NCBI GenBank assembly: GCA_022568135.1
Contig: JADFFQ010000006.1
Span: forward strand, 1 to 64,000
Reading direction: 5' to 3'
Length of the DNA stretch: 64,000 bases
From: Planctomycetota bacterium
Lineage (GTDB): Bacteria; Planctomycetota; Phycisphaerae; Phycisphaerales; SM1A02
Of the stretch, positions 19,424 to 52,102 are shown piece after piece. The notes below the pieces were generated by a model that saw nothing but the letters and a program-made list of their open reading frames with translations, made no database searches and had not been told where the DNA came from. The position numbers were made by a program, and so were the translations under genes. The stretch's first letter is position 1. Every line of letters starts with the position of its first letter.

Positions 19424-19448
19424 TGAGGAAGGCTCACCAACCCAACAA

Positions 19449-22239: not shown

Positions 22240-22322
22240 AACGAATAAGTTGAGCGGCGGCGCAACAATCGCGGCCATCAGGACCGACGTTGTTCGCCGT
22301 CCGATCCAATGCTTGGTTAGGT
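22236..22322 (-). other. attC-like recombination site closing cassette locus 1
   Basis: On the minus strand the site starts with ACCTAAC (22322-22316), which fits the R'' consensus RYYYAAC. It continues with TTGGATCGGACGGCG as L'' and CGCCGCCGCTCAAC as L', which pair with one extrahelical A (CGG-A-CGGCG). It ends at a GTT core (22242-22240) followed by a poor R' (GTTCTCG). The stop codon of the gene at 22317-22739 is the TAA inside R'', a known feature of integron cassettes. Fold by eye only. Confidence 0.6.
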
Positions 22323-22739
22323 GCGGGTGGCGGAATCCAATATCAACCTTTGGATACTATTCGCGATGCTTGCCTGCAGAAAAAGTGATCTTGTGAAGAG
22401 CCAGTTCTTGTGTTTCGGACCAATATCTACAAGACCCGTGTTCTCAGTCTTGTCCGATGTCGATATGGTCATAATGACTTTTTCGTCTTTCTCTAGCTCG
22501 TTGCGGGCGATGGACCAATTGATATGCGGATTGTCTTTCCGTGAATCGTCCAGAATGCAGTACATTCGCGCTGGCGTTGCTACTAAGTAAGTGCGCTGTT
22601 TTGAAGTAGAAAAAAATTTTAACAAATGAACGGAGTTCGGGTTTTCGCCCTGGTAATTCTTGGAATGCTTGATCCAGTCTTTGATCTCCTTTTCAGGTCG
22701 AAAAAACGCATCCGAGTCGAAGAGTGCTTTGATACTCAT
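22317..22739 (-). CDS. Cassette-borne hypothetical cytoplasmic protein
   Basis: The 140-aa product (MSIKALFDSDAFFRPEKE...) has no motif I recognise. Its middle, LKFFSTSKQRTYLVATPARM, and the lysine- and asparagine-rich composition are unlike neighbouring chromosomal genes. The ATG at 22739 is preceded by AGAGGA at a good distance, and the upstream gene ends 5 bases before it. The stop TAA lies within the attC-like R'' box. It probably works with the membrane protein encoded just upstream. Function unknown. Confidence 0.75.
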   Translation of the reverse strand: MSIKALFDSDAFFRPEKEIKDWIKHSKNYQGENPNSVHLLKFFSTSKQRTYLVATPARMYCILDDSRKDNPHINWSIARNELEKDEKVIMTISTSDKTENTGLVDIGPKHKNWLFTRSLFLQASIANSIQRLILDSATRT

Positions 22740-22743
22740 AGCT

Positions 22744-23133
22744 TTATTCCTCTTCCACAACGGTTTGCTCAGGCTCGTCCGCTATCTCCCGTCGCCTGAC
22801 TTTGTCCAAGAGTTCGGTTAGCACGAGCGGCCAGGTAAATCCAACCAAGAGGCAACCCGAAAGGCTCACCTGAAAAAGGTCAATGAGCTGCCCAAACCAG
22901 CCGACAGCAAACGACCCAAAAGACCATGCAAGCAAGAATAGGATCGTGTTCTTTCCATGCTGCAACTTTAGCAATGACCGCCCTCGCAGAGCGACGAAGG
23001 CCAAATCGAGCAAAACGGCTGTAACGCCAATAATTGCGCAACCTGTCGCGAACACGGGAACGGCAAAAGAATTGTCCTCCAACGACACTACCTTCAGCCG
23101 AAAGAACATTTCGAGGAGACCGTCGAGGAACAT
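22744..23133 (-). CDS. Cassette-borne small membrane protein
   Basis: The 129-aa product has three to four hydrophobic segments (near residues 24-45, 62-82 and 88-108) and an acidic C-tail (EPEQTVVEEE). GAGG lies 8 bases before the ATG at 23133. It is the first gene after the leader, 36 bases from the GTT core, and 5 bases before the next gene, so the pair forms one two-gene cassette. The lower GC content suggests foreign origin. Function unknown. Confidence 0.75.
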   Translation of the reverse strand: MFLDGLLEMFFRLKVVSLEDNSFAVPVFATGCAIIGVTAVLLDLAFVALRGRSLLKLQHGKNTILFLLAWSFGSFAVGWFGQLIDLFQVSLSGCLLVGFTWPLVLTELLDKVRRREIADEPEQTVVEEE

Positions 23134-23168
23134 GGCGATAACCTCGCGGGGTTACGGATAGCACGAGC

Positions 23169-23384
23169 ACCTAACAATAATCAGCTTGATCCGCAACACA
23201 TGCGGAACTGTCGTGTTCTGTCAGCATAACACGGCTGTGGATCGTCTACCAGAGGCGCGCTAAGCCCTTCATCTAACGACGAGGGGTCTGCAATGTCAAT
23301 CTGCCCCCACCCCTACCCAAGTGGCCCGCCAGGGGATCCAGGCCGCCGTCTTGGCGGATCGCCGCGGCGGGTCACCGTCGATTC
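23169..23384 (-). promoter_or_regulatory. Cassette leader 1: conserved promoter and attI-like end
   Basis: This 216-base segment is homologous to 43470-43683. On the minus strand it carries TTGACA (23299-23294), a 17-base spacer and TTAGAT (23276-23271), a good sigma-70 promoter conserved in both copies. It ends GGATCAAGCTGATTATT-GTTAGGT, the last seven bases fitting the GTTRRRY core of an integron recombination site. The first cassette gene starts 36 bases later. No integrase gene is attached. Interpreting it as attI plus Pc is inference. Confidence 0.65.
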
Positions 23385-23450
23385 TCATCCAAGGGATCGT
23401 TTATGACTTGACAGTCGGGACGGGGCGGGCGTTCTGCTCGTGCTCGGAAA

Positions 23451-33598: not shown

Positions 33599-34483
33599 TT
33601 ACGGGCACGCACCCCAGTTGGCCAGCAGCGTAAGCAGGTCGAGAATGCCCACGCTGCCGTCGCCGTCGAAGTCCGGCGGCCCGCCGGGGTCGGTGCCCCA
33701 TACCGCTAACAACACGAGCAGATCGAGGATGCCGACACTGCCGCCCGCATCGAGATCCCACGGGCAGTTTCCGGGGGCGGCGGCATCAAAGAGGTATGCC
33801 GAACCGGATTGGAAGCCGTTGTCGTTGTCGAGCCAGGCCCCGACGATGGCGGTGGTTCCGCTGATCGCGACGGAGACGCCGAACCATTCGCCCGCCGCGC
33901 CGTCGTCGGGCAGGAGCTTGGCGATCTGCCGGCCCGTGGTGGTGTCGAAGAGGTAGGCCGAGCCGGAGTCGGCGCCGTTGTCATCGTCCTGGAAGGCCCC
34001 GACGATGGCGGTCGCGCCGCTGATCGCGACGAAGACGCCGAAGTGGTCGTCCGCCGCGCCGTCGTCAGGGAGGAGCTTGAATAGCTGCTGTCCCGTGGTG
34101 GTGTCGAAGAGGTAAGCGGAACCGGAGTTGGAGCCGTTGTCGTCGTCCCAGCGGGCCCCGACGATGGCGGCCGCGCCGCTGATCCCGACGGACCATCCGA
34201 ACCGGTCGGCCCCCGCGCCGTCGTTAGGAAGGAGCTTGGCGATCTGCCAGCCCGTGGTGGTGTCGAAGAGGTAGGCCGAGCCGGAGAAGGTGCCGTTGTC
34301 GTCGTCCCACACTGCCCCGAGGATGGCGGTGGCGCCACTGATCGCGACGGAGAAGCCGAATGAGTCGCCCGCCGCGCCATCGTCGGGCAGGAGCTTGAAG
34401 AGTTGATCGCCGAGGTCGGCGTAGGCCGGGGCGGTGCTCAGGACTGATGCTGCCGCGGCAAGAAGTGGCATGAGATGTCGCAT
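33599..34483 (-). CDS. Secreted FG-GAP repeat protein with dockerin-like C-terminus
   Basis: A signal peptide (residues 1-22, ending PAYA) is followed by four near-identical 56-57-residue repeats. Each contains KLLPDDGAA, FG.SVAISG.TAI.GA and GSAYLFDTTTG. The two tail repeats (GSVGILDLLVLLAVWG and GSVGILDLLTLLANWG) are calcium-loop dockerin-type motifs typical of Phycisphaerae exported proteins. The AGGAGA box before the ATG at 34483 supports the start. It is presumably a secreted beta-propeller-like protein attached by the tail. No cohesin is seen in the window. DNA-level repeats make this region prone to recombination. Confidence 0.88.
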   Translation of the reverse strand: MRHLMPLLAAAASVLSTAPAYADLGDQLFKLLPDDGAAGDSFGFSVAISGATAILGAVWDDDNGTFSGSAYLFDTTTGWQIAKLLPNDGAGADRFGWSVGISGAAAIVGARWDDDNGSNSGSAYLFDTTTGQQLFKLLPDDGAADDHFGVFVAISGATAIVGAFQDDDNGADSGSAYLFDTTTGRQIAKLLPDDGAAGEWFGVSVAISGTTAIVGAWLDNDNGFQSGSAYLFDAAAPGNCPWDLDAGGSVGILDLLVLLAVWGTDPGGPPDFDGDGSVGILDLLTLLANWGACP

Positions 34484-37678: not shown

Positions 37679-39505
37679 ATGCCGAAGTCCCTGACGCCGG
37701 GCCTATCCTGTTGGGTGCTGAGTCGATCCGTCCTGGCAGCAGTTGGGGCAATAGCGGCGGCGGCGATCGCCGGCTGTGGACCCCTCGATGATGAGCAATC
37801 CGCTACCGCCGGTGATGAAGCAGGCGCGGTCGCGCCGCCCGCTGCGCAAGAGCCGGACGATGTTGATCCATGGTTCGTGGATATCGCTGAGGCTTCGGGT
37901 TTGGATTTCATTCACACCACCGGCGCCGCGGGCGACTACTACTTCCCGGAGATCGCCGGGTCCGGCTGCGGGCTGTTGGACTACGACAACGATGGCGATC
38001 TCGATGTGTACGTGGTTCAGAGCTACCCGCTCGACGGTTCGGCCGCGGATGACCCGCACGCGGGCGCCAACCGCCTGTATCGCAATGATCTGACCGTCAA
38101 CCCCGACGGCTCACGACGGCTGCGTTTCGTTGATGTGACCCAGCGCGCCGGCGTGGGCGATCGCGGGTACGGCATGGGCGTCGCCATCGCGGACTTCGAC
38201 AACGACGGCGACACCGATCTGTACGTCACCAACTTCGGGCCGAACACGTTGTATCGCAACAATGGCGACGGAACGTTCACCGACATTTCCGACGGCGCGA
38301 TCCCGCCGGAGGATCGCTGGAGCACCAGCGCCGCCTTCGTGGATTACGATCGGGACGGCTTCGTCGATCTGTTCGTCGCCAACTATGTGAACTTCACCGT
38401 ACGGGAGAACAAGGTCTGCCACAGTACGTCCGGCCGGCGCGACTACTGCGGTCCGCAATCGTTTGATCCGGTCCCGGACCGGTTGTTCCGCAATACCGGC
38501 GATCCCGGCGCGCCGGGATTCAGCGACGTGACCATCGCCGCAGGCATCGACGCCGCCTATGGCAGCGGTCTGGGCGTCGTCTGCGCCGATTTCAACGGCG
38601 ATTCCCAGCCGGATATCTATGTCGCCAACGACGGCAACGCGAACCAAATGTGGATCAACCTCGGCGGCGAGAGATTCGAGAACACCGCTCTGCTCGGGGG
38701 CGCCGCCTACAACGCCGCCGGGCTCGCCGAGGCCGGCATGGGCGTGAGCGCTGCGGATTTCGACCTCGACGGCGACCTGGACATCTTTCTTTCTCATCTG
38801 TACGCTGAACACAACACCCTGCTGGTCAACGACGGGCACGGATATTTCGACGATCGCACCGAGGACTTCGCGCTGGCCGCAATGAGCTGGCCGTATACCG
38901 GCTTCGGCACCCAATGGGCCGACCTGGACGGTGACGGCTACCTGGATCTGTTTGTCGCTAACGGCGCTGTGAAGATCGTCGAAGAGATCGCCGATGACCC
39001 GTACCCCTACGGCAATCCGAACCAGCTGATTCTCAACCTCGGCCCGCCGAGCTTCGCCTTCACCGAGATCTCCCCCCAAGGCGGGACCGTGGTGCAACTA
39101 CGCGAAACCTCCAGGGGCGCAGCGTTCGGCGACATCGATAACGACGGTGACATCGATATTCTCATTTCCAACAGCAACGGTCCGCTTCGGTTGCTACGAA
39201 ACGAAGTGGGGCATCGCCGATCCTGGCTGGCCCTGCGGCTGGTCGGCGACGTGAGCAATCGCAGCGCGATCGGCGCGGAAGTTCGGCTCATTCGCGCAGG
39301 CATGCCGGCGTTGGTCCGCCGCGTCCATAGTGACGGCAGCTATTGCAGCGCAAACGATCTGAGGGTGTACTTCGGCCTTGGTGACGACATCAACTCGCAG
39401 ACCGTGGCCGTTACCTGGCCGGGCGGACTCGAGGAGACCTTCTCCGATCTCACGGTCAGGCAACACCACCAACTGCATGAAGGGTCGGGGGAGGCGCCGC
39501 CATGA
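37679..39505 (+). CDS. CRTAC1-family lipoprotein: FG-GAP/VCBS repeats plus ASPIC/UnbV domain
   Basis: The 608-aa product has a lipoprotein signal ending AIAGC, then a series of FG-GAP/VCBS-type calcium loops (LLDYDNDGDLDVYVV, IADFDNDGDTDLYVT, FVDYDRDGFVDLFVA, and others) forming a beta-propeller. It ends with an ASPIC/UnbV domain (RSWLALRLVGDVSNRSAIGAE near 515 on). These proteins are surface or periplasmic with no fixed enzymatic role; some are adhesin-like. The stop overlaps the start of the TPR gene by 4 bases, a pairing seen in planctomycetes. A fragment of a paralogue lies at 35514-35592. Confidence 0.92.
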   Translation: MPKSLTPGLSCWVLSRSVLAAVGAIAAAAIAGCGPLDDEQSATAGDEAGAVAPPAAQEPDDVDPWFVDIAEASGLDFIHTTGAAGDYYFPEIAGSGCGLLDYDNDGDLDVYVVQSYPLDGSAADDPHAGANRLYRNDLTVNPDGSRRLRFVDVTQRAGVGDRGYGMGVAIADFDNDGDTDLYVTNFGPNTLYRNNGDGTFTDISDGAIPPEDRWSTSAAFVDYDRDGFVDLFVANYVNFTVRENKVCHSTSGRRDYCGPQSFDPVPDRLFRNTGDPGAPGFSDVTIAAGIDAAYGSGLGVVCADFNGDSQPDIYVANDGNANQMWINLGGERFENTALLGGAAYNAAGLAEAGMGVSAADFDLDGDLDIFLSHLYAEHNTLLVNDGHGYFDDRTEDFALAAMSWPYTGFGTQWADLDGDGYLDLFVANGAVKIVEEIADDPYPYGNPNQLILNLGPPSFAFTEISPQGGTVVQLRETSRGAAFGDIDNDGDIDILISNSNGPLRLLRNEVGHRRSWLALRLVGDVSNRSAIGAEVRLIRAGMPALVRRVHSDGSYCSANDLRVYFGLGDDINSQTVAVTWPGGLEETFSDLTVRQHHQLHEGSGEAPP

Positions 39506-41142
39506 CCAGCGCCGGCCGGGCGTGGGCACTTGCATTCGTGGTGATGAGCGCCCTCGTGACGAGTATGGCGGTTGCCACGATCACCGCGCCCGGCGCGACG
39601 CTGATAGGGGCGGCGCTACCGGCGCCGCCGAGCGCCGAAACATCACCGCTTCAGACGGCGGTCAATCTCCCACCCATCCCCGATTTTCCGTTCGAATTGA
39701 TGGAGCCGGCCGTGCGCAGGCAGTTCGTCGAAGCCGCCCGTCGCGTGGCCGCGTCACCACGTGACGCGGAGGCGAACGGAAGACTCGGCATGCTCTATCA
39801 TGCCTACGAGTTTCACGTCCTTGCCGAGCCGTGCTATCTCCGGGCGGTCGCCTTGGCTGGGGATGATCTGCGTTGGCGCGCCTATCTGGCCAGGGTGCTG
39901 CTGGAGCGCGGCGAATGGGAGCGTTGTGCCGGCGAGCTTGATCTGGTCCTCGCCCAGCGCCCCGATGATGTTGCTTCGCTGATCTATCGCGCCGATGCAG
40001 ACCGCATGCGAAATCGCTTGGATGAAGCGCTGGCCGGATACCGGCGAGTCATTGAGATCTCTCCGAAGACCGCACGAGCATATTGCGGAGCCGGCCGAGT
40101 CTTGCTTCGACGCGGAGAACTCACGACCGCGGTGGGATACTTGGAGGAGGCGATCCGTCTCGCTGGGGAGTATGGCACGGCGAGGTATGTGCTGGGGCAG
40201 GCCCTGCGCAAGCTCGGACGCGCCGAGGCGGCAATGCAACAGCTCGAACTCGCCGAGCAGCAACGCAACGAAGAGCCACGAGTCCCTGATCCGCTGAGGC
40301 AACGCCTTGATGCGCTGCGAACCGGCGCGATTGACGCCTTACATCGCGGCATTGACCTGCTTCAACAAGGGCAAGTAGAGCATGCGATCGCCTTGCTCGA
40401 AGAAGCGGTGCGGATCAATCCCGACCTGCCGGAAGCCCACGGTCAGCTTGGCACTGCGCTGCTGAAACGGGGCCAGTTGGAGCATGCCGAGGAAAGCCTG
40501 CGGCGCGCATTGATCCTCGACCCAAACTTCGTCGATGCGCTCTACAACCTCGGCTTGATTGCCCATCGGCGAAACGACTACTCAGAAGCGGCGAGGCGCT
40601 TTGCACTGGCAGTTTCCATTCGCCCGCAACACTTTGATGCGCATCTGGGGCTCGGCGCAGACTTGTCGCGCCTCGATCGGGCGGATGAGGCGATCGAGCA
40701 TCTCCGCGCCGCCGCAAGGATTCGACCGGATGATCCGCGTCCCTACAAGCGGCTCGGTAGCGCACTTGCGGCGCTGGGGCGGTACGAGGAGGCCATCAGC
40801 CGGCTACGGGACGGCGTGCAGCGACTGCCCGACGACGCGTCGATCGCTGACCGGCTGGCGTGGATGTTGGCGACATGTCCGCAGGAGCAGTGGCGAGATG
40901 CAGAGGAAGCACTTCGCATTGCCGAGGCGGTATGCCGCAGGACCAACAATGCGGTGCCGCAGGCCTTGGACACTCTCGCCGCGGCCCTGGCCAATCTTGG
41001 CCGCTTTGAAGAGGCGATCGCCGCCGCCGAGCAAGCGCTTCAAATGGCAAGAGCGAACGACAACCGCGACCTCGCACGTGAGATCGAGGCTCGCCTGGGC
41101 CATTACCGCGCCGGCCGGCCCTACCGCCAGCCATCGCCCTAG
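39502..41142 (+). CDS. Membrane-anchored or exported TPR protein
   Basis: An N-terminal hydrophobic segment (residues 6-30) is followed, from about residue 75, by about a dozen TPR units such as ALAGYRRVIEISPKTARAYCG, HAIALLEEAVRINPDLPEAHG and EAARRFALAVSIRPQHFDAHL. Some are degenerate and a linker lies near 250-275. TPRs mediate protein-protein contacts; the gene overlaps the CRTAC1 gene by 4 bases (ATGA), so the two probably form a complex at the envelope. No other domain is visible. Confidence 0.92.
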   Translation: MTSAGRAWALAFVVMSALVTSMAVATITAPGATLIGAALPAPPSAETSPLQTAVNLPPIPDFPFELMEPAVRRQFVEAARRVAASPRDAEANGRLGMLYHAYEFHVLAEPCYLRAVALAGDDLRWRAYLARVLLERGEWERCAGELDLVLAQRPDDVASLIYRADADRMRNRLDEALAGYRRVIEISPKTARAYCGAGRVLLRRGELTTAVGYLEEAIRLAGEYGTARYVLGQALRKLGRAEAAMQQLELAEQQRNEEPRVPDPLRQRLDALRTGAIDALHRGIDLLQQGQVEHAIALLEEAVRINPDLPEAHGQLGTALLKRGQLEHAEESLRRALILDPNFVDALYNLGLIAHRRNDYSEAARRFALAVSIRPQHFDAHLGLGADLSRLDRADEAIEHLRAAARIRPDDPRPYKRLGSALAALGRYEEAISRLRDGVQRLPDDASIADRLAWMLATCPQEQWRDAEEALRIAEAVCRRTNNAVPQALDTLAAALANLGRFEEAIAAAEQALQMARANDNRDLAREIEARLGHYRAGRPYRQPSP

Positions 41143-41487
41143 CAGCGCGTGGCAGAAGTCATTTGGAGTAGGTTTCAGGGCCCCTAATGGAGTCAAAAAC
41201 GCGGTATGTACGAGGTCGAAACCGCGTTCACCACGGGCTGTTAAGGGTCCGGGCGGCGATCCGTTTCCGACACATAAATTTGCCGGATCTGCTGGCACCT
41301 ACTGCATTCCTGCGGTACATTACTGATAAGATGTGCCCGGCTGCGGGCTGGGCCTGTCGATGCGTCACCTGGGTGGGGCCTGAACGCTATCGGCCGTCGC
41401 GCGGTGTCCACCATTGCGTGACCGGGTCCCTGGCAGTCAGGCCATACATATCTGATCAAGAGCCGCTTCATGGGCATGGAGGTTGAA
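41143..41487. other. Intergenic region upstream of the FG-GAP/dockerin gene
   Basis: No gene, clear terminator, tRNA or repeat was found in these 345 bases. Short frames have atypical composition. It should contain the promoter for the gene at 41488, but I do not see a strong consensus. Confidence 0.6.
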
Positions 41488-43296
41488 ATGCACCAAGCAA
41501 GTTTGATCATGGCGGTCGTGTTCACGACGGGCGGTGCGGCGGCCTTTGCCGGCCAATTGCCGGGCACCTTGAACTACCAGAACGTAAGCGGCGCCCGCAT
41601 CAACCAGACGGTGCCGGAAGGGGGCACGAGCGAGAAGGAGGTCGAGTACGGCGATTTCGACAACGACGGCGATCTTGACGTGGTGATCGCCGTCGCCCAC
41701 AGCGACTTCGGCCAGCGTAAGAACAAGATGTACCGCAACGATGACGGCGTGTTCAACGAGATCAGCGCCACCGTGCCGCTCTTTACTACCGGCATGGGCG
41801 ACGTCGCTCGCAACGCGTTCTTCCGCGACTACGACCTCGACGGTTGGCTGGACCTCATCATCGTCTGCGACAACAACACCGGCGGTGATCCCGGCCGAAC
41901 GAAATACTGGCGCAACGTTCATGCCGGCGGGGTCCACACCGGCTGGGTGGAAGAAGGCAATGCCCGCCTCGGCCCCAGCACCGGCGGCGCGGCCTGTGGC
42001 GCGGTGTCAATCAACCCGGATATGGACGGCGACTTCGACCTCTATGTCGGCAACTATCCCGGTCCGTCACAGGACACGATGTATTTCAACCGAAACGACC
42101 TCCCCGGCTACTTCACGAACATGACGGGCAGCCACGTGCCGATCGACAGCGATTACACGGTGGATGTTGCTTCCGCCGACATGAACGGCGACGGGAAGCT
42201 GGACCTGCTGATCAGCAACTGGGGTCCGAACTATATCTATTACAACGACAACAATGGTGCCGGCGGTGGCGTAGGCGACTTCAAATATGCCGGTAGCGCG
42301 CAATATATCGGCAACGCGAGCCTCAATGAGAACGCGATGGAGCCGGGCGACTTCGACGGCGATGGCGACCAGGACATCTATTGGACCAACTTGATCGGAG
42401 GTGCCGACCGCATTCTCCGTAACAACGGCAACGATGCCGCCAACAAGGCCACCTTTACGGGCCTCGCTATCCTGCCGCCGTCAACGGCCAGCATCGTTTC
42501 GCGCAAGGCCACCGTGGCCGACCTGAACAATGACGGGCGCGTCGACGTCTTCGTGATGAAGGAGCAAGGCGGGAGCAGCCGGCCGACCATCCTTCGCAAT
42601 ACCTCCGTCAACAACATCATCTCCTTCGTCGATTGGACACCCGCGCCCGCATTCCCCAGCGGCGCCATTCATATGGGTTGGCACGCTGCGGTCTTCGACA
42701 CCGACGGCGACCGCGATCTGGACATCTTCCTCGGCGGCTGGACCAACGATCACCTGTTTGAGAACGTCCCCGCTAACGAAGTTGATGAGGATGACCTGGC
42801 CGGGGGAGCCCTGCCCGGGGTGTACAACAATGATCCCGTCGCAGTGCTCGGACATGCCTCGGAGGGCGACGTCGATCTCTACACCGCCAGCGGTATTGGG
42901 GCCAACGCGCTGATCTCCCTGGTGCTCAACGGGCCGGATGACTACTTGCTGGAGCTGCTCAACAGCGACGGAAAAATCCTGGCGAGCTCCAATCGAGGTG
43001 GGTTGGGCATTGAGGAGGCGCTTCAACAGAGCGTCAGCCCCGGCCTCTACAGGGTCCAAGTAACCGTGATCCAAGGCGGTTCTTCGATCTACGACCTTGA
43101 CAACGATGGAACGGTCGGCATCCTCGACCTGCTTGCATTGCTCGCCGCCTGGGGCCCCATCCCGACACCCGACCCGCCCGATTTCGACGGCGACGGCATT
43201 GTCGGGATCTTTGATCTGCTCCTGTTGCTTGCCCATTGGGGTGACGCCGGCGGCCCCAACGATTACATCCTCGAAGTCCTCTCACGCAGCGGTTGA
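41488..43296 (+). CDS. Secreted FG-GAP/VCBS repeat protein with dockerin-like motifs
   Basis: The 602-aa product has a signal peptide (residues about 1-21, ending AFA) and repeated calcium loops (YGDFDNDGDLDVVIA, FRDYDLDGWLDLIIV, SADMNGDGKLDLLIS, PGDFDGDGDQDIYWT and others). Near residues 530-590 it has two dockerin-like repeats: DLDNDGTVGILDLLALLAAWG and DFDGDGIVGIFDLLLLLAHWG, followed by a short 15-residue tail. GGAGG lies 5 bases before the ATG at 41488, better than the in-frame ATG at 41470. It is related in design to 33599-34483 but not in repeat sequence. Confidence 0.9.
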   Translation: MHQASLIMAVVFTTGGAAAFAGQLPGTLNYQNVSGARINQTVPEGGTSEKEVEYGDFDNDGDLDVVIAVAHSDFGQRKNKMYRNDDGVFNEISATVPLFTTGMGDVARNAFFRDYDLDGWLDLIIVCDNNTGGDPGRTKYWRNVHAGGVHTGWVEEGNARLGPSTGGAACGAVSINPDMDGDFDLYVGNYPGPSQDTMYFNRNDLPGYFTNMTGSHVPIDSDYTVDVASADMNGDGKLDLLISNWGPNYIYYNDNNGAGGGVGDFKYAGSAQYIGNASLNENAMEPGDFDGDGDQDIYWTNLIGGADRILRNNGNDAANKATFTGLAILPPSTASIVSRKATVADLNNDGRVDVFVMKEQGGSSRPTILRNTSVNNIISFVDWTPAPAFPSGAIHMGWHAAVFDTDGDRDLDIFLGGWTNDHLFENVPANEVDEDDLAGGALPGVYNNDPVAVLGHASEGDVDLYTASGIGANALISLVLNGPDDYLLELLNSDGKILASSNRGGLGIEEALQQSVSPGLYRVQVTVIQGGSSIYDLDNDGTVGILDLLALLAAWGPIPTPDPPDFDGDGIVGIFDLLLLLAHWGDAGGPNDYILEVLSRSG

Positions 43297-43377
43297 ACCA
43301 CCTCAGAGACGATTCGAGCGTAGGCCTCATGATCCCGCGGCGCACTCCACCCGGCCGTGCGCCCACCGGAACGCGAT

Positions 43378-43452
43378 GGGTGGCTGTGGCTAAGTCTTCG
43401 ATGCCACAGCGTCAAAGGACTGGGGCACGCTTCGCTTAGCCCCAGCCACCCG
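43378..43452. repeat. Long REP-like inverted repeat
   Basis: GGGTGGCTGTGGCTAAG (43378-43394) and CTTAGCCCCAGCCACCC (43435-43451) are nearly perfect inverted arms about 40 bases apart. The outward-facing GGTGGCTG...CAGCCACC resembles a widespread planctomycete palindrome. It directly precedes cassette leader 2. Confidence 0.65.
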
Positions 43453-43469
43453 CCGCTTGCTTCTAACCG

Positions 43470-43683
43470 GAATCGACGGTGACAGGCCGAGTCCTGTCCC
43501 AAGACGGCGGCCTGGAGGCCCTGTCGGGCCGCTTGGCAGCGGTGGGGACAGATTGACACCGCAGACCCCTCGTCGTTAGATAAACGGCTTAGCGCGCCTC
43601 TGGCAGACGATCCAGAGGCGTCTTATGCGGACAAGAAACCAAAGTTTCGCATGTTATACGGATCAAGCTAATTATTGTTGGCC
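43470..43683 (+). promoter_or_regulatory. Cassette leader 2: conserved promoter and attI-like end
   Basis: Homologous over its full length to the minus-strand leader at 23169-23384. It carries TTGACA (43553-43558), a 17-base spacer and TTAGAT (43576-43581), with CGCGCCTCTGG and GGATCAAGCT-ATTATT conserved. It ends GTTGGCC (43677-43683), one base off the GTTRRRY core. The NYN gene starts 16 bases later with its own AGGAG. No integrase is present. The attI/Pc interpretation is inference. Confidence 0.65.
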
Positions 43684-43698
43684 CGCAAGAGGAGCCAA

Positions 43699-44388
43699 AT
43701 GAAACCACAAGGTTCAATCTGCAGAATCGGAGTCTTCTACGATGGTTCCTTCTTTGCCTACGCGCAGGCATACTTCTACCACGACAGGAAGCTCGGTTGG
43801 CTTAGCTTCAGACCTCTCCACACGTTTTTCGAGACGTTCATTAGCAAAAAGGACCAGAGCTTTTCCAGCTACAAGGTCGTCTACGCTTCTTGGCACCAAG
43901 GTATGTTTCCTGGAAGGAACGCCACGGATGAGCAACTTCGCTTCGACCGTCGGCTTTACCACGATCTCATGCACGCTGGCGTCGATCCCAAGTACTTGCC
44001 CACGTCACAACAACGCCGGGAGAAGGGGACGGATGTTGCCCTCGCGGTGGATGCACTTCAAGTCGGATTGGACGGCAAGATTGACATCGCGGTGCTTGTA
44101 ACAGGCGATGGCGACTTTGTCCCTCTTGTCAGGGCTTTGAATAAGCACGGTATTCGAGTGGTTGCAGCCTACTTCGATTTCCAGGATGCACGAGGGAAGA
44201 AGAGCTTCATTAACGAACGGTTGCTCAAGTGCTGCAACTATGAGGTGGACATTGGAAAGTTGGACGGCGATCGTGAGTTCGCGGCTACCTTCAAGAGTCT
44301 CTTCCGTACACCAAGTGATTTTCGGGACTCCGGAGAAGGCCAACCACCGCTTCCAGCCGACGCCGAGGACGGCGCGGCTGAAGCATAG
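43699..44388 (+). CDS. NYN-domain (LabA/DUF88-type, PIN-like) ribonuclease, cassette-borne
   Basis: The 229-aa protein has the acidic NYN residues: IGVFYDGSFF near residues 9-18, KGTDVALAVDAL near 115-126 and LVTGDGDFVPLVRAL near 134-148. NYN proteins are PIN-like metal-dependent nucleases, several linked to RNA processing, retroelements or defence. The C-terminal 30 residues are an acidic tail. ATG at 43699 has AGGAG 6 bases upstream. It is the first gene after the leader, so it should be the most strongly transcribed cassette gene. Target unknown. Confidence 0.88.
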   Translation: MKPQGSICRIGVFYDGSFFAYAQAYFYHDRKLGWLSFRPLHTFFETFISKKDQSFSSYKVVYASWHQGMFPGRNATDEQLRFDRRLYHDLMHAGVDPKYLPTSQQRREKGTDVALAVDALQVGLDGKIDIAVLVTGDGDFVPLVRALNKHGIRVVAAYFDFQDARGKKSFINERLLKCCNYEVDIGKLDGDREFAATFKSLFRTPSDFRDSGEGQPPLPADAEDGAAEA

Positions 44389-44419
44389 CATTCGCCTGAG
44401 AATAGACTATGTATGAAGG

Positions 44420-44480
44420 ACTTAACAACTCGGGACAGGTACCAACATCCCGTGGTGTTTCAAATCGGTGGCTGTCCCGT
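44420..44480 (+). other. Weak attC-like hairpin between the two cassette genes
   Basis: ACTTAAC (44420-44426) fits R'' (RYYYAAC), and CGGGACAG (44431-44438) pairs perfectly with CTGTCCCG (44472-44479). However, no R' (expected near GTTAAGT) follows. It may be a degenerate attC or only a hairpin, so the two genes could also form one cassette. Confidence 0.35.
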
Positions 44481-44499
44481 GATATCCCAGGAATATGAA

Positions 44500-45342
44500 A
44501 TGAAGCACATCCTCAGCATCATACTGCTATTCTTCCTCACTGGATCAGTCTACGCAGACACCTTTTATGTGGGCGGGAAACAACTTGACATTCCTTCCCC
44601 ACAGGGTTACTCGCGCGTCACACAACAAATGGATGCCGTCTACCGGGTGAGCCTGCAGATGGCAGATCCTCGAAACGATCTATTGGCATGTTACATCCCA
44701 GACTCGGACGTTCCGGCTGCAATGTCAGGCGCACTTTGGTCCTTTGAGCGCTACTATCTTCTTAAGGTCAATAAACGGGTCAAAGATGTGGTGGTGGGAT
44801 CCAAAGACTTCGCCGAACTCAAGACCATTACCAAACGCCAGAATAAGGAGGTCTTCAAGGCTCTAGAATCACAGATACCTGACCTTATGGAGAATATGAG
44901 CAAAGGTCTTAGCACAGAGTTTGATGTTAATGTCGCGCTCCAAATGTCTCAGATTATACCACTTGATCCGCATTATGAAACAGAGAATTCTTTAGCCTTT
45001 TCAATGTATATGCATTTAGACATTTCTGTAGAGGGAGCAAAGGAAGATTTTATTCTTTCTGCAACTAGCACTTTCGTAAACGTGGCAGGAAAGATTCTGT
45101 TCCTCTACTGCTATGCGCCGCAGAAAGATTTAGAGTGGACTCGAGACGCTTCAAAGGCTTGGGCGGGTATGGTTATGGCTAGCAATGTGCGACCGCCATC
45201 CCGCACATCTGATAGTCGTGGTATGGATTGGAGCAAAGTGTTTGCGAAGGGAATCGTTGGCGCAATTATTGGAGTAATAATGGCTGTGATTGTTGTCATT
45301 GTTGGAGTTTTCTCGAAGTTCAACAAGAAGAAAGAAGTCTAA
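44500..45342 (+). CDS. Cassette-borne protein with signal peptide and C-terminal TM helix
   Basis: The 280-aa product starts with a signal peptide (MKHILSIILLFFLTGSVYA) and has a soluble domain of about 210 residues without motifs I know. A C-terminal TM helix (GIVGAIIGVIMAVIVVIVGVF) and a basic tail (KFNKKKEV) follow. The N-terminal FYVGGKQLDIPSPQGYSRV recalls small bacterial exported proteins of unknown function. Base composition is AT-richer than all neighbours, suggesting transfer. The stop TAA lies inside the R'' box of the attC-like site, as expected for a cassette gene. Confidence 0.85.
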   Translation: MKHILSIILLFFLTGSVYADTFYVGGKQLDIPSPQGYSRVTQQMDAVYRVSLQMADPRNDLLACYIPDSDVPAAMSGALWSFERYYLLKVNKRVKDVVVGSKDFAELKTITKRQNKEVFKALESQIPDLMENMSKGLSTEFDVNVALQMSQIIPLDPHYETENSLAFSMYMHLDISVEGAKEDFILSATSTFVNVAGKILFLYCYAPQKDLEWTRDASKAWAGMVMASNVRPPSRTSDSRGMDWSKVFAKGIVGAIIGVIMAVIVVIVGVFSKFNKKKEV

Positions 45343-45435
45343 CAAGGCGCTGCAATCGGACTACCAAGGGCGGCGCGGCCTCCTCTATGCTACAGCCTTA
45401 CCACTTTTGACAGCCGGTGAGTTTGGACGTTACGC
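45337..45435 (+). other. attC-like recombination site closing cassette locus 2
   Basis: GTCTAAC (45337-45343) matches R'' exactly. It continues AAGGCGCTGCAATCGGAC, a very typical L'' arrangement, and ends AGCCGGTGAGTTTGGAC-GTTACGC, with L' and a core GTT (45429-45431). L'' and L' pair with bulges including an extra A (CGG-A-CT). R' is one base off GTTRRRY. The preceding gene's stop is embedded in R''. Length, 99 bases, is within the attC range. Confidence 0.7.
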
Positions 45436-45694
45436 AGAGCCTTCCTGCCGTCCGTAGGTCTCGCTCACCGAGCTGTTCAGGTCGAGGATGAACTTCTTCA
45501 TCGGGTGGCGTTGGCGGATTCGATCCACCCATTGGCCGGGCATCGCCATCAAGGCGGCGAGGTTATCCGCTTCACCCATTGGGTTCCTCGCCTATTCGAT
45601 GCTTCGAGGTGCAGAGTCGCCGTAATCTACTCAGGTGTACGCCATGAAAGGTTGTTCAAGAACGCCGATCCGCCACAGGCGGATGGGAAATCGG
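45433..45694 (-). pseudogene. IS1380-family transposase remnant C, abutting the attC-like site
   Basis: On the minus strand the translation includes MAMPGQWVDRIRQRHPMKKF and ILDLNSSVSETYGRQEGS, matching the first catalytic-Asp region of IS1380 transposases. The match stops at the GTT core of the attC-like site. It also includes the CGGATTTCCCATCCGCC...GTTCTTGAAC block of remnant A and about 90 bases missing there, so it is the most complete remnant. No functional transposase remains. Confidence 0.75.
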
Positions 45695-45696
45695 CG

Positions 45697-46497
45697 CTAG
45701 GGGGAGGCGACCCATCGGCCGTGACGAAAGTAGGGTTTCGAGGCGTCCACGCCAAGCATGTCCGCGAGACGATCCGGGTCAGCCTCGATGAGCGGTTGTC
45801 CGTTGGTGAGCAGCAGATCGCTCGACCACGAGCGGTGAGGTCCGGCGAGCAGCGCCGCTTCGAAGCGAAGCATGGTCATCAGATCATTGGGCGAGAGCGT
45901 GGGCTTGCGCGGGGGGCGATACAACCGGCAGTCTTCAAGGAAACCCCTGACACCGCCTCGCAGCACGTGCCCGTGCGCTTCGAGCAGTTCCATGGCGCCT
46001 GGCCTTGCGAGCGCGGCAAGGGCGCGCGCACCCTGTCCCTTTCGATAGTGGCTCAGCGCTTCGGCGACGGCCAGGACGGCGACAGGGTCAAGATCGCCGG
46101 CGGGGTTGGTTTGATGGGCACTGCCCACCCCGCCGCGGTGGTCAAGCAAACCGGCCAAAGCCAGCAATCGGCGGTTGGCCTGGCGGTGGTCCTCCAGGTC
46201 CGCAAGAGCCAGGCAGGAGCTGCGACCGAGCCGGGGCTGATCGAGCACCCCGGCGAGAGCGTACAGGCGGTTGGCCAGATCATGGCGCGGCTGATCGCCC
46301 GCGGCGTCGGCGACCTCCTCCGCCAGCTCGAAATACGCCAGTGCATCGCCCGGGTTCAGTGCTTCAAGCCGATCAAGCCACTCGCCGGAGCCGGCTGAAT
46401 CATCTGTGGAATCTCGGCTGCCCAAGGTTGTGGACCACGCGATTACACTCAGGGCGGTGACCAGCACGAGGAGCATTGCGGGGCGGGACGCGGTCAT
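45697..46497 (-). CDS. Hypothetical exported/anchored protein, last gene of the ExbBD/vWA operon
   Basis: The 266-aa product has an N-terminal hydrophobic segment (residues 5-25) and an all-helical soluble part rich in Ala, Leu and Arg, similar in style to TPR-like proteins (EWLDRLEALNPGDALAYFELA). There are no catalytic motifs. Its start overlaps the previous gene's stop by 4 bases. Probably extracytoplasmic and part of the Exb/vWA complex by operon membership only. Confidence 0.7.
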   Translation of the reverse strand: MTASRPAMLLVLVTALSVIAWSTTLGSRDSTDDSAGSGEWLDRLEALNPGDALAYFELAEEVADAAGDQPRHDLANRLYALAGVLDQPRLGRSSCLALADLEDHRQANRRLLALAGLLDHRGGVGSAHQTNPAGDLDPVAVLAVAEALSHYRKGQGARALAALARPGAMELLEAHGHVLRGGVRGFLEDCRLYRPPRKPTLSPNDLMTMLRFEAALLAGPHRSWSSDLLLTNGQPLIEADPDRLADMLGVDASKPYFRHGRWVASP

Positions 46498-49436
46498 TGG
46501 TTCGCCTCTGGGGGGGTATTCACGGCCAGTTGCGCCTGCCAGAGTCGGGCGATGGCTCGCTCCACGTCAACTGCCTGCTCCAGCACATGGGTCATGCCTG
46601 CGCGGCGGCGGGCAGACTCGGCCAGGAGGTCCGCCAGCGGTTCACGGAGCCCGGGCTGCTCGGCCACTGCGAGATAGGTCATCAGTTCGAGCAGGCCGAC
46701 TTGCGTCGCCACGAATCGTTGCAACGATCCCTGGGTGAGTCGGAGCCGTACGGCGTGACGGCGCTGAAGTTCGTTCAGATCACCCGGCACGGGATCGGCG
46801 ACGCGCACCAACGCAGCGCGGTCTCGCCACGCCTTCAATAACCCTTGCGCGACGGCGTGCACAGTCCCGGCGGTATCCGAGGCGAACCCGCGCGGCCGCA
46901 TTGCCGCGTGCCGGTTCAGATAGGATTCGACCACGGCCGCCGTCCGCTCGTCGATCCGGCCGGGGCCCAATCGCTGCAAGCTCAGGGCGTGCTCGACCAG
47001 GCCCAGCCGGGCATCGATCGCCCACGATTCTGAGCGACCCCTGGGCAGCAACCGGCCAGTAAACCGGCCAATAGTCTCGGCGGTGCGCTGGGAGGCCGAT
47101 GCACCGGGAAACTGATCGAGCATCTGCAGGGCGACATTCGCCCCGGCAGTAAACCGATCGACGACCACTGACTGGGCCAGTTTCCGCACGTCCGCCCAAG
47201 AGCTGTGATAGACCGCGCGGACGAGTGCCTCGGCATCGTTGGGCCCGAGATCGACGCCTGCGGCATTGCGCAGAACGCGAAGGCGCTGCAATCTCTCCTC
47301 CGTATTGCGTCCAGCCTGCTCGAAGGCGGCGGCCCATTCGCCATCACGGCCGGTCGGCCCACCGGGACGGGTCGGGTTAACAGACGATGCGCCGGAGCCC
47401 GCGGACAATGCGCCACCCGGGCTCGCCACCTCGATCGCTTCGAGCCGGTCCAGGAGTTGACGGGCCGACGCCTCCTCACGGGCAACCATCCATGACGCGG
47501 CCTCGTTGAGCCGGCAGGCGATGACCAGTTGATCCATCAACCGCTCAGGTTCGCCGGCGAGCGGGCGGTGCAGCTGCGATTGAGACATCGTCAACCACCG
47601 TGCCGCCAGGACGGGATCGACGGGGAGCCCGGGGGCTTCGGCATTCGGCTCGGCCACCGCCCAAGCGGCGTGAGGCCACCGCTGACTGATGCGATCGGCG
47701 ATGCGCCGGCGAAACATCCAGTCGCCGTCCCTGGGAAGCACCAGATCGTCGCTGAACCACGAAGCCGCGCCTGATTCGGCGAGCAGACTGGTCAACACCC
47801 ACAGGTCCTGAGTGCTGATGCGCTGGTCGTCATCAAAGAATTCGCGCAGACGGTGCTTGACGATCCTGCTGGAATCAAAGTCCGACATCGAGAGCAGACG
47901 GCCGAGAACGTTGACCCCGGGACCCGGCCGGGACAGGTCGATGGAGCTGCGAAGGACGGCCTCGATTCCGAGCATCACCGCGGTGTTAAGACGATCGCCC
48001 CTGCCCAGCCGGGCCTGGACTGCAATCCAGCATTCCCAGAAGTCGTAGATCCGCTCGTCAGACTCCATCATGTCAATGAGCGTAGCCACCGTCCCGTCCA
48101 GCCATGCTCCGGCCGCAGAGTTGAAGCCGGCGGCTGCTTGCAGCGCTCGACGGTTCAGGGCGATGTCCAGATGCGTGCGAGCCCGGTCGATCACGGCCGG
48201 TGAGAGATTTGCGGTGGAGCTGATCCTGGCCAGAGTCCCGGCCATCCATGCGCCTCGCCAAAGGTCAATCGGGTCGGCGAGTCGCCCCGATGGAGGCATC
48301 AGTGCCATGAGCAATCGATCGGCAACGCTCGGTGAATCGGACGCTTCGTAGAGTGCTTCGACGATCGCCCGGTCGATCGCCGCGCGGGTGTCGTCGTCGA
48401 TCATCGCCCAGCCGACTGCGACCGTCCGCATGAAATCATCCCAGGCGCGATAGACCGCCTCGGACGGGTCGTCGGAAATCGCGATGCGCCGCGCAAGCGT
48501 TCCGATCTCTTGGGGCAACTGCGGACATTCATCAGCAGCACGAGCGGTTTCCGGCGACAGCGCGCGGCCGAGGAACGTCGGCGGCTGGGGAAATCTCGCC
48601 AGTCGATGCATCGGCGGCGCGACCGGGCGACCATCAGCCGCCTTGGTGGGCTCAGCCGGAGTACTGATCCAGGGCGACTTCAACGGGGCCGACACTGTGG
48701 TCTCTTGGGCAGGAGTGAAACGGTGCGACTGCCCCGGGAACAATAAGAAACGTACGGCGACCATAGCCACAACCAAGGTGAGTAACCCAAACAACAACGA
48801 GAGCTTGATCGTCGTCGAGGCGGTGTCTTGGCGTAATTGCGGCGTGAACCCGGTGAGCCGTAGCGACTCGGCCTCCCCCTGCCGCGGAGCGACCGTGGGC
48901 AGGGCGGCAACTCGAGCGGCGCCTGATGTGATCTCGGCTGTGCCCAGGCGCGGTCCACCAGACTTGGCGTACTCACTCAAGCCGGCGACGACTCGCATCA
49001 AGCCCTGTACGCTCACACCGTAGGCCCCCGCCAATGCGACCAGCTTGGACCGTGTGGTCGCGTTCCATCCTCCGCAACCCACCAGCACCGCCAAGACATG
49101 GCGGTCGAAATCGGTGAGCGTGTCGGCGGCGATCGAATGGATCTCGGCGGGCGCCGGGGCATGCGGGGTGGATCGGCTGGTTGGATTTACTGTGGCAAGT
49201 CTCCCCGCGCGCTCGATTGATGCCAGAATCGTGTCCGCGGCTTGGCGCAGGCGCCGGCGAACCTGATGGGCCTCGCGGCTTCGACCGCCGGGATGATGAT
49301 CGACTTGACGCAGGCGTACTTCAAGGGCGGCGGCCACCGAAGACGCGTCACACCTCTGCGCCGGCAGACCCAACAGCCTCAGTGGGTCCGACGAGCGTTC
49401 AACCCCGAGGAAGCGCTGAAACGGATCGACCCTCAC
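46494..49436 (-). CDS. Large membrane-anchored protein of the ExbBD/vWA operon (980 aa)
   Basis: The N-terminal 70 residues (MRVDPFQRFLGVERSSDPLR, then LLGL and a helical RRRLRQAADTI region) resemble a short planctomycete-specific N-terminal domain (DP..KWLGI...NHYRLLGL) found on kinases and other proteins. A TM helix (LSLLFGLLTLVVAMVAVRFLL) lies near 210-230, then a proline-rich linker and about 700 residues of helical repeats. No enzyme motifs were recognised. It overlaps both neighbours by 4 bases. A scaffold linking the cytoplasm to the periplasm is a reasonable guess. Confidence 0.75.
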   Translation of the reverse strand: MRVDPFQRFLGVERSSDPLRLLGLPAQRCDASSVAAALEVRLRQVDHHPGGRSREAHQVRRRLRQAADTILASIERAGRLATVNPTSRSTPHAPAPAEIHSIAADTLTDFDRHVLAVLVGCGGWNATTRSKLVALAGAYGVSVQGLMRVVAGLSEYAKSGGPRLGTAEITSGAARVAALPTVAPRQGEAESLRLTGFTPQLRQDTASTTIKLSLLFGLLTLVVAMVAVRFLLFPGQSHRFTPAQETTVSAPLKSPWISTPAEPTKAADGRPVAPPMHRLARFPQPPTFLGRALSPETARAADECPQLPQEIGTLARRIAISDDPSEAVYRAWDDFMRTVAVGWAMIDDDTRAAIDRAIVEALYEASDSPSVADRLLMALMPPSGRLADPIDLWRGAWMAGTLARISSTANLSPAVIDRARTHLDIALNRRALQAAAGFNSAAGAWLDGTVATLIDMMESDERIYDFWECWIAVQARLGRGDRLNTAVMLGIEAVLRSSIDLSRPGPGVNVLGRLLSMSDFDSSRIVKHRLREFFDDDQRISTQDLWVLTSLLAESGAASWFSDDLVLPRDGDWMFRRRIADRISQRWPHAAWAVAEPNAEAPGLPVDPVLAARWLTMSQSQLHRPLAGEPERLMDQLVIACRLNEAASWMVAREEASARQLLDRLEAIEVASPGGALSAGSGASSVNPTRPGGPTGRDGEWAAAFEQAGRNTEERLQRLRVLRNAAGVDLGPNDAEALVRAVYHSSWADVRKLAQSVVVDRFTAGANVALQMLDQFPGASASQRTAETIGRFTGRLLPRGRSESWAIDARLGLVEHALSLQRLGPGRIDERTAAVVESYLNRHAAMRPRGFASDTAGTVHAVAQGLLKAWRDRAALVRVADPVPGDLNELQRRHAVRLRLTQGSLQRFVATQVGLLELMTYLAVAEQPGLREPLADLLAESARRRAGMTHVLEQAVDVERAIARLWQAQLAVNTPPEANQ

Positions 49437-52102
49437 GATGGTGGCTCCGCAGCCGCTCGATCGGAACCCCGCGATCCGGCCGCATCATCGGGTCGATCAT
49501 CGCCGGTGTCAGCAGGCCCGATGCGCAGGTCCAGCGCCCGGAGCCGAGACCCCCACGGCTCTGGGCCGTACGTCGGCGTGAGCTGCTTGTGTTGATCCAT
49601 CACCGCGCGGGCTCGAACAGGATCTCTATCCGCAAGCAGGGAAATCAGATGAAACTTCGCTTCGAACCATCGCTGCGTCCCCACCGCGCTACCCGCCACA
49701 AGCGTACGCCAGCATTCCAGTGCGCGATCCACCTTGCCCAGCTTCGCTGAAAGCAGCGCGGCGGCTCGCAGAAATCCGGCTTCGGTCGGCCGGGCCTTCA
49801 GCAAGGTTTCATAAAGCTCAAGCGCGGCCTGAGCGTGATCCAGATCACCGCTGCGCTGCCAGATTAGCATCAATGCATCGGCGACAGCAGCGTGGTAGGC
49901 AACCACATCCCGCCGTTGCAGCGCCTCGGGCTTCTCGGCGAATTCGCCAAGGATTCGACGCCCGTGTCGGACCACGAGATCCAGGTCGGCGCGATCGACG
50001 TACAGATCCCGCTGCCGCGCTCTGAACCGCAGCAGCCCGTAGCGAAACAGAGTTCGCTCGGCGAGGCGCGACCACACGGAAGCCTGGTCACGGGCCCAGA
50101 GCTCTTGGGCGATCGTGTCCGCCGACGCGGAGTCTTCCCCAAGCAGGCGCTCCTGCACCCGGCGATAGTCCAGTTCATCCTCATACGGCGACAGATCGAA
50201 CCCTCGCTCGCTTTGCAGCTCGTCGAGCGCGGCGAGGACGTTTCCAGCCTCGACCCGACGTTCGATGCCCTCAGTCAGCGCAATCTCCAACACACGGCGA
50301 CACCGCGCAACGTACTGCCCGACGGTCGTGTCGTCGATGAGATCCAGGCGTTGCGCCGCTGATCCAACGAGTGGCACGGCGACAGCCAGGTATTCGTTGC
50401 CGTACGCCAGGCGCTGCTCGGCCGACGCCTTGCGGAAGAGTTGATAGAGGACCTGGGCGGCCCGTTGCTGGGCTGCGTCGTAGACCTCGCTGTGGGGAGG
50501 GATCGTCAACAAATCCTCGACCACTGCATGAGTTGGCTCCCTGGCCAAGCCGGCGCGCTTGAGGAGGAGCTTCGGGGCATGCCGGCCGGAGGGATAGAGC
50601 GCCAGGACGCGATCGATCAGGTCCGACAGTTCCCGGCTCAGCGTCTCGTTCCCGTCGGCCTGCACAACCTTGTCCAACGAAACGACGGCCATCCATAGCG
50701 CTTCGGGGGCATCATCAGGCCCAAGCCGCACCGCGGCCAACTGGAACGAATCACGGGCGGCGAGGAAGTGACTCTGAAAGTAGTGACACCACCCGATCAA
50801 CCAGCGGCAGCTCGCGGCCGCCTCCGGGTAGCGATCGGCATCCGCCTCGGCCAGCGCCGCCTCGAACTGGTGGATTGCCTGCTGGTAGAGGCGGACAAGC
50901 TGCTCGTCGGCTGGTGCCGGGCGGTCGTGCCCGTGAGCCGCCCGGGCATGGTCGTAGTGTTGGACGCCTTTGACGTACCGGATCGCGAATCCGGTATCTC
51001 CCATGGCGCCGACGCCGTAGCGCTCGGCGAGGTCCAGTACCTGTTGCAACTCACCTCGTGCGGCGAGTGCGGTGACGGCGAAGCGGGCAAGCTCGGCCGC
51101 CGGCCGGCTTTGCGGCTTAGCTTCCAGCGCGTGCACCGCCGCCAACCGAAGCCACGCCAGCGGCGGCGGCCTGGCAGCCTGCGACTCGTCGGCGAGGATT
51201 GCCCTGGCCGAGCGATACTCGCCGTGCTCCAGATAGATGGCGATCTTCCAAGCGCCAACGCGGTCTCGCAGCGGGGCGTACGCTCGGTCATGCTCCAGAA
51301 GCTCGATCCATTTGATTGCGGTGGCCGATGACGCGGTGAGGGATTTGCACAAGGCCATGCCAAGTATCGAGCGCGCCACCGCCTCGGAGGAGCGGAGGTC
51401 CACCGAGATCTCCTGCGGTTGCGGGCGGGGAGACTCCGCCTCCACCAACTGTGCGAACAGGTCCTCGGCCACCCTGGCATTGTCCGGCCGATCATGTAGC
51501 CAGGACTGGTAGTACAGGGCCCAGGCGTTGAGGAATGTGCATTGAGCGAGCAGTCGCTGCAAGCGCTGGGCATGCTGGGCGAGCATTTCGGCGGCACTTC
51601 CGCTGGCTCGGGCCAGTCGGCGGTCGGCAAGCTGTACTCGCTCCTCTATTCGCCCGCGCAACTGATACAACTGCGGAATGATCTCCGAAAGCGTTTCCTT
51701 GGCCTGGGCGATCTCCTCGTCGCTGCTCTGGCGCAGTCGATGGTCTTCTGCGATCTGCTCCGCCGCGCGATAAGCCCCTCGCAGCAGGGCCAGACGAAGC
51801 TCTTGGCCGGTGTCCGGGGCAACGGCCGAAAGCAGCCGCCGGCTACGCTGTTCCAGGTGCACACGAGCAGCGGGATCATCGGTCGATTCCAAGAGATGGG
51901 CGTAGATACCGACCAGCCGAAGGATCAACTCCTGCCGCTCGGGGCCCGCGAGATCATCCAACTGCTGCTCCAGGTGCACGGCCAGCAATTGCCGCAGGCC
52001 GTGGCGCTGCAGGTAGGCTGCCACCTCGTCACCACGCGCGTTGCCAGGCAACAACAGTGCGACGGACGCGATCAGCAGCAGCACCCTACTCGTCGGGGAC
52101 AT
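49433..52102 (-). CDS. Large periplasmic TPR-like solenoid protein (889 aa) of the ExbBD/vWA operon
   Basis: A signal peptide (residues 1-24, ending NARG or similar) is followed by more than 800 residues of helical repeats. Some resemble TPRs (YQQAIHQFEAALAEADADRY, DHAQAALELYETLLKARPTE). There is no TM helix after the signal, so it is likely periplasmic or outer-membrane associated, in reach of the ExbD and vWA domains. Its start lies 17 bases inside the end of the second ExbD gene and its stop overlaps the next gene by 4. Function unknown. Confidence 0.8.
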   Translation of the reverse strand: MSPTSRVLLLIASVALLLPGNARGDEVAAYLQRHGLRQLLAVHLEQQLDDLAGPERQELILRLVGIYAHLLESTDDPAARVHLEQRSRRLLSAVAPDTGQELRLALLRGAYRAAEQIAEDHRLRQSSDEEIAQAKETLSEIIPQLYQLRGRIEERVQLADRRLARASGSAAEMLAQHAQRLQRLLAQCTFLNAWALYYQSWLHDRPDNARVAEDLFAQLVEAESPRPQPQEISVDLRSSEAVARSILGMALCKSLTASSATAIKWIELLEHDRAYAPLRDRVGAWKIAIYLEHGEYRSARAILADESQAARPPPLAWLRLAAVHALEAKPQSRPAAELARFAVTALAARGELQQVLDLAERYGVGAMGDTGFAIRYVKGVQHYDHARAAHGHDRPAPADEQLVRLYQQAIHQFEAALAEADADRYPEAAASCRWLIGWCHYFQSHFLAARDSFQLAAVRLGPDDAPEALWMAVVSLDKVVQADGNETLSRELSDLIDRVLALYPSGRHAPKLLLKRAGLAREPTHAVVEDLLTIPPHSEVYDAAQQRAAQVLYQLFRKASAEQRLAYGNEYLAVAVPLVGSAAQRLDLIDDTTVGQYVARCRRVLEIALTEGIERRVEAGNVLAALDELQSERGFDLSPYEDELDYRRVQERLLGEDSASADTIAQELWARDQASVWSRLAERTLFRYGLLRFRARQRDLYVDRADLDLVVRHGRRILGEFAEKPEALQRRDVVAYHAAVADALMLIWQRSGDLDHAQAALELYETLLKARPTEAGFLRAAALLSAKLGKVDRALECWRTLVAGSAVGTQRWFEAKFHLISLLADRDPVRARAVMDQHKQLTPTYGPEPWGSRLRALDLRIGPADTGDDRPDDAAGSRGSDRAAAEPPS

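Follow-up and report, generated by a model that had tools for sequence, protein, structure and literature searches.

Results

Organisation of locus 2

The window, i.e. the complete 64,000-nucleotide stretch of planctomycete DNA that was analysed, carries at locus 2 (43454-45700) the left end of a dispersed repeat, followed by an attI-like site, a G|TT junction, a cassette, an attC site, a second G|TT and a decayed fragment of an IS1380-type transposase gene (Table 1). Locus 2 is best read as a single integron gene cassette, comprising an NYN gene, a membrane gene and one attC, at an integrase-less attI. An earlier note on this DNA had described a leader homologous to that of locus 1 over 214 bases, and alignment confirms this homology (212 bp at 83%), the shared leader stopping at the GTT at 43677-43679. 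An NYN gene, said to start 16 bases after the GTT core, does lie there, although the spacing is 19 bases (ATG at 43699). The second cassette gene was correctly described as a signal-peptide/transmembrane gene ending inside GTCTAAC (45337-45343), while GTTACGC occupies 45429-45435. Similarly, the contents of loci 1 and 2 were found to be unlike and their ends alike, as had been stated, the right ends being 89% identical over 92 bp.

Table 1. Features of locus 2 and of locus 1 in the window
Feature	Position	Strand	Remark
Left part of dispersed, putatively MITE-like repeat, outer end lost at locus 2	43454..43577	+	~125 bp recurring at many loci of the own genome
attI region, 5' part, hairpin CGCCTCTGG...CCAGAGGCG	43578..43616	+	present only in copies leading into cassettes
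attI core, ...CGCATGTTATACGGATCAAGCTAATTATTG|TT	43617..43679	+	homologue directly 3' of IntI C-terminal half, G057:C215, same strand
Integrated cassette, TTGGCC to G of attC crossover point	43678..45429	+	between-copy identity drop at GTT
NYN-domain (LabA-like) nuclease-like gene, 229 aa from ATG	43699..44388	+	Pfam PF01936
Small repeat, inverted ends CGGGACAG...CTGTCCCG, between both cassette genes	44424..44495	.	copies in G071
Second cassette gene, 280 aa, signal-like N-terminus, C-terminal TM	44500..45342	+	no family assigned
attC, R'' GTCTAAC ... R' GTTACGC, 99 nt	45337..45435	+	top attC profile score in the window
IS1380-type transposase gene fragment	45430..45579	-	weak Pfam PF13701 match
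Right part of dispersed repeat, inverted end ...GATGGGAAATCGG	45564..45698	+	orthologous in G071 and G044; separate copies elsewhere
Locus 1, whole	22143-23436	-	same ends as locus 2, other genes
Locus 1 leader, repeat-left part and attI	23173..23436	-	83% to locus 2
Locus 1 cassette, 129-aa and 147-aa ORFs	22242..23174	-	attC 22236-22322, second-best attC score in the window

The transposase gene fragment encodes 49 aa and matches DDE_Tnp_1_4 weakly, at an E-value (4.8e-5) under the curated cut-off; the same fragment marks the right end of other copies of this arrangement (hereafter platforms). A full IS1380 transposase that would explain the repeat was not found in the own genome (G000). Across the 64,000 nucleotides of the window neither a tRNA nor any RNA family other than 16S was detected, and a scan for sigma-70-like promoters identified none on the plus strand of 43400-45500.

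The cassette genes

The product of the first gene, which has an RBS-like AGGAG ahead of it at 43690, matches the Pfam NYN domain (E 5.4e-17, 63 bits against a cut-off of 24.2) and the PADLOC NYN model (2.8e-7). It carries the acidic motifs FYDGS, EKG.DVALA and GDGDF, which are conserved in aligned relatives, and thus displays both the domain and the acidic residues that characterise NYN-domain RNases. Judged by its domains, the protein probably cuts RNA, and it may perhaps have a role in phage defence or stress. Relatives occur in several phyla, and in an Anaerolineaceae MAG (L083, 3745-5732) one of them lies next to a complete, divergent IntI (439.6 bits) as the first cassette, with GTTAGGC ahead of it and GCCTAAC behind. 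Additionally, the leader and NYN gene recur as a block at another place in the congener G071 (92.6% over 905 bp). For the second gene, no Pfam, NCBIfam or PADLOC family scored over its cut-off. The small repeat between the two genes was considered as an attC and dropped, as a GTT end and an attC score are both lacking; it also occurs in G071 at C19a (92%) and C8 (82%), and shows partial resemblance to the GAACTCGGGACAG repeats at 18451-18713.

Identification of the attC site

A two-arm attC profile, trained on eight attCs from intI-linked arrays of family relatives, was applied to the 1523 GTTs that the two strands of the window contain. The first and second ranks fell to the predicted cassette ends, with scores of 32.5 (locus 2) and 32.2 (locus 1), and the GTT in third place reached 18.1. 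Since the profile was trained independently, the first rank among 1523 GTTs excludes chance for the attC of locus 2 and substantiates the strong attC-like end that had been claimed there. Other platform attCs scored 34.4 (C84), 32.3 (G071 C19b), 40.1 (G037 C116) and 43.5 (G066 C57), while those at C9, C19a and C137 are damaged. In all sequence scored, values of at least 22 were mostly obtained in intI-linked arrays and at platform ends, with a few attC-like sites elsewhere. By a crude score for arm pairing that took the outer ends as anchor points, the locus 2 attC was unremarkable, being equalled by 24% of control GTTs, which indicates weaker pairing between its halves than at locus 1. This score, which counted the unpaired outer spacer as a penalty, failed to pick out locus 2 and was therefore dropped in favour of the profile.

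Over seven cassettes, the 5' boundary (RRRY) is complementary to the cassette's own R'' at 21 of 28 positions, with complete agreement (4/4) in three cassettes. The value is two of four informative bases for locus 2 and four of four for locus 1, where R'' (ACCTAAC) exactly complements the 5' boundary GTTAGGT. A pattern search of whole genomes for the attC 5' half gave no excess over the control, so we give no figure for additional attCs. The R''/R' cores and conserved arms found at the 3' end of locus 2 make up the attC that identifies an integron gene cassette; having one attC, the locus is not a CALIN as defined by default in IntegronFinder 2 (at least two attCs without intI). Two attCs, the second damaged, are present at G071 C19a. 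Outside the three platforms of the own genome, a well-formed attC-like site (GCCCAACCCGCCGTTGCAACGGAC...AAGGCGTTAGGC; L118, G000:C23, ~11565-11588) follows a gene and possibly represents an orphan cassette.

The leader contains an attI

On sequence grounds, the leader of locus 2 contains a true attI. The 102-bp stretch preceding the cassette (43578-43679) is missing from the other own-genome copies of the 125-bp repeat that were compared and occurs only before cassette-like cargo, most repeat copies being without attI. In G057, a homologue is located approximately 115 bp past the stop codon of the C-terminal half of an IntI (TIGR02249, 1.2e-63); the two share one strand, and the homologue terminates with a perfect GTTAGGC. 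Alignment of 15 attI copies, including those from other families and from an ANGP1 genome, revealed a core common to all. The 5' part displays a mean identity of 0.83 among copies and is also present in a copy from another family. Three attI copies reside in the own genome, five in one congener and more in two further genera and other families, the further copies including those of genus g38, a second family (G410) and a third (G182). The G410 copy is 94% identical and leads into a gene of 240 aa, accompanied by an attC-like end and, again, the transposase fragment. Both this copy and that of G037 C136 are without the left part of the repeat, and attI and repeat are thus separable. A weaker attI-like stretch lies ahead of a truncated NYN homologue in an ANGP1 genome. 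Furthermore, on the minus strand of G182:C67 (L210, ~619-900), from another family, an attI-like site is situated inside an array, with an attC before it and a small zinc-ribbon cassette and then an attC-like end after it.

The dispersed repeat

The 125-bp stretch represents a portion of a dispersed element's left end, and breaks at CGTCGTT in those copies that reach so far. Left ends start with CCGACATTTCCCATTTGACC and right ends close with GGTCATCTGGGAAATCCGGG, forming imperfect inverted repeats, the inverted ends being CCGACATTTCCCANNTGACC and CCCGGATTTCCCAGATGACC. The left-end pattern was counted 18 times in G000, 16 in G071, 12 in G044, 8 in G092, 12 in G037 and 3 in G012, and a reversed control pattern gave no match. 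No clear target-site duplication was seen in the flanks of the few two-ended copies. The repeat is short and multi-copy, possesses terminal inverted repeats and lacks a transposase gene, features by which it would be classed as MITE-like; most of the platforms have their attI embedded in it. A direct repeat with a 159-bp period was additionally observed within a long ORF region of the window (33779-34396).

Cargo of the platforms

A third full leader copy, on contig C84 of the own genome (86% over 233 bp), precedes yet another gene. Approximately ten gene sets were listed over the copies, with different genes at nearly each copy, and these cargo genes are transcriptionally oriented away from attI. 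They comprise the NYN and TM genes of locus 2, the 129- and 147-aa ORFs of locus 1, a 198-aa ORF (C84), an NYN gene with a truncated gene (G071 C9), a 219-aa ORF (C19b), a glyoxalase-like gene (C11), a 173-aa ORF with an HNH-like gene of 287 aa (G071 C19a; HNH assigned by eye, with no Pfam match), and ORFs of 231 aa (genus g38), 256 aa, 142 aa and 240 aa (G410). Between copies with different cargo, mean identity drops from 0.81 in the attI core to 0.31 in the 40 bp past the GTT.

The remains of another platform were recognised at 17987-19505, where a transposase fragment (17987-18125) and a truncated leader (19448-19505) enclose the gene of a REP-associated Y1 transposase (18771-19310) with the accompanying GCCGCCACTGGCGGCGG repeats. 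In G071 the orthologous site is occupied by a platform (C19a) carrying 1.7 kb of cargo, the last attC of which is damaged.

Comparison of orthologous sites in congeners

Three congeners share a conserved right flank with locus 2. Positions 38544-43489 and 45564-50675 of the window align with G071 at 93-95%, while in place of 43490-45563 G071 has a different core of 1.94 kb with two reverse genes, one of them encoding a CAP12/PDC-S35 TIR protein. G044 and G092 retain only short repeat remnants at this site. As the G000/G071 breakpoints (43490 and 45564) lie inside the repeat ends and not at attI, homologous recombination between repeat copies is a strong co-explanation for the difference. The G071 site (L160, G071:C24, 4998-6841) was seen to hold a CAP12/Pycsar-type TIR gene (PADLOC candidate PDC-S35) together with a membrane gene, and this suggests that the locus-2 site may collect defence genes.

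At the position of locus 1, between uvrA and a GGDEF-EAL gene, both leader and cargo are different in G071 (C19b). The two leaders are roughly 57-88% identical per 40-bp segment, compared to 98-100% in the farther flank; the leader itself therefore differs, and exchange at this position was not confined to the cassette. The results indicate that whole cores, leader included, were exchanged, which fits recombination between repeat copies, while the original entry of a cassette at G|TT fits an integrase. For the locus-2 site, recombination between repeat copies is at least as good an explanation as an integrase acting in trans.

The modular cargo exchange at a shared platform that was proposed in the earlier note is thus upheld insofar as variable gene sets lie behind the attI copies, with attC ends in most, and contents differ in congeners at two conserved chromosomal sites. 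It requires revision in that the leader is composed of two things, a repeat end (43454-43577) and an attI, that no integrase was found in platform genomes, and that the locus-2 breakpoints fall in the repeat.

Search for an integron integrase

No integron integrase over the family cut-off (TIGR02249) was identified in G000, G071, G044, G092, G037, G066 or G088, nor in G410, G182 or G012, while 10 of 151 family genomes possess an intI over this cut-off. The own genome is 93% complete and is distributed over 87 contigs, and an intI could therefore be missing from the assembly. Regarding the components of a complete integron, locus 2 has the attI and no intI beside it. Given that the platform genomes yielded no integron integrase, their sites are either integrase-less relics or are acted upon in trans.

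Discussion

Origin of the platforms

We consider it likely that locus 2 represents an integron cassette at an integrase-less attI, with attI, cassette and transposase fragment contained within a multi-copy, MITE-like repeat, and we infer the following steps for its origin. An ancestral integron would have carried intI immediately ahead of attI, the order seen in G057, and would subsequently have lost intI, after which the attI would have been incorporated in the repeat family, copied and dispersed. Cassettes would first have entered through the action of IntI at attI, while whole cores would later have moved between repeat copies through homologous recombination or gene conversion, an integrase in trans perhaps also having moved cores. 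A broader proposal, which we advance only tentatively, is that the repeat family took over attI and so created scattered landing sites, amounting to a distributed integron in which cassettes, some of them with defence genes, reside one or two per site and are swapped via the repeat and/or an integrase in trans.

It may also be envisaged that the system is still live, with an IntI supplied in trans (by a plasmid, a phage or an unbinned contig) inserting and removing cassettes at the scattered attI copies. The different cargo of each copy, the well-kept attI core and the good attCs would be in keeping with this, as would the presence of intI in a minority of family genomes (10/151); nevertheless, we deem it unlikely, as G000, G071, G037, G066, G088, G012 and G410 have no intI over cut-off, several attCs (C9, C19a and C137) are damaged, and exchanges between congeners are not bounded by attI. 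Strongly disfavoured, and in our estimation very improbable, is the view that leader, cargo and right end form a non-autonomous transposon, i.e. a MITE with cargo, whose cassette-like ends are by-products unrelated to any integron: while the inverted ends, the approximately 18 dispersed copies per genome, the internal transposase fragment and the locus-2 breakpoints in the repeat agree with this view, it does not accord with an attC profile that matches exactly at the predicted ends, an attI homologue beside IntI, an NYN gene that is a cassette beside IntI elsewhere, and a cargo boundary fixed at G|TT. The least probable explanation, entry of the cassettes at ordinary GTT (attG-like) sites in the repeat behind a leader that is not attI, has a parallel in the known cassette insertion at attG sites (PMC12444791) and in the GTT at which the 125-bp repeat also ends, but in its plain form was rejected on account of the 102 bp before the cassettes, which are missing from the other repeat copies compared and homologous to the sequence just 3' of intI, an arrangement in G057 that contradicts it unless the proximity is accidental.

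Relation to known systems

The platforms suggest that attI has been copied with a repeat element, without an integrase, across several genera belonging to two or more families. An attI is normally regarded as a single site beside intI. A literature search for dispersed or orphan attI sites returned mostly unrelated papers, among which nothing comparable was found. A copied attI would offer another route by which cassettes become fixed and reshuffled in chromosomes, and the platforms may serve as a natural test of the origin of CALIN-like relics. They also point to a set of mostly uncharacterised cassette genes in Planctomycetota. With NYN/LabA-like RNases (Pfam PF01936) the locus 2 protein shares the domain match and the conserved acidic motifs, while its subfamily is distinguished by its spread across phyla and, in some cases, by clearly being an integron cassette.

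CALINs, for which intI loss or off-target insertion has been proposed as origin (PMC9024848, PMC8618304), resemble the platforms in being attC-bearing cassettes without intI; the platforms, however, each have their own attI copy and usually one attC, and most lie inside a repeat family. In Xanthomonas, integrons that lost intI and CALINs at several loci have been reported (PMC12444791), and integrase loss and the presence of cassettes at several conserved chromosomal loci are common to both systems, whereas a dispersed attI or repeat family, as seen in the platforms, is not described in the consulted sections of that report. The attI fragments of delta-attI-type cassettes (PMC12901181) are likewise found away from the usual place by intI, inside arrays, but, unlike the platforms, belong to resistance cassettes in mobile integrons. 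Finally, in MITE-flanked class 1 integrons, as far as the citing articles relate, two MITE copies flank the integron (Gillings 2009 as cited in PMC8618304; Domingues 2011 as cited in PMC3410848), and a miniature inverted-repeat element is thus tied to integron material in both cases, while in the platforms attI and cassette are located inside one repeat, without intI and in many chromosomal copies.
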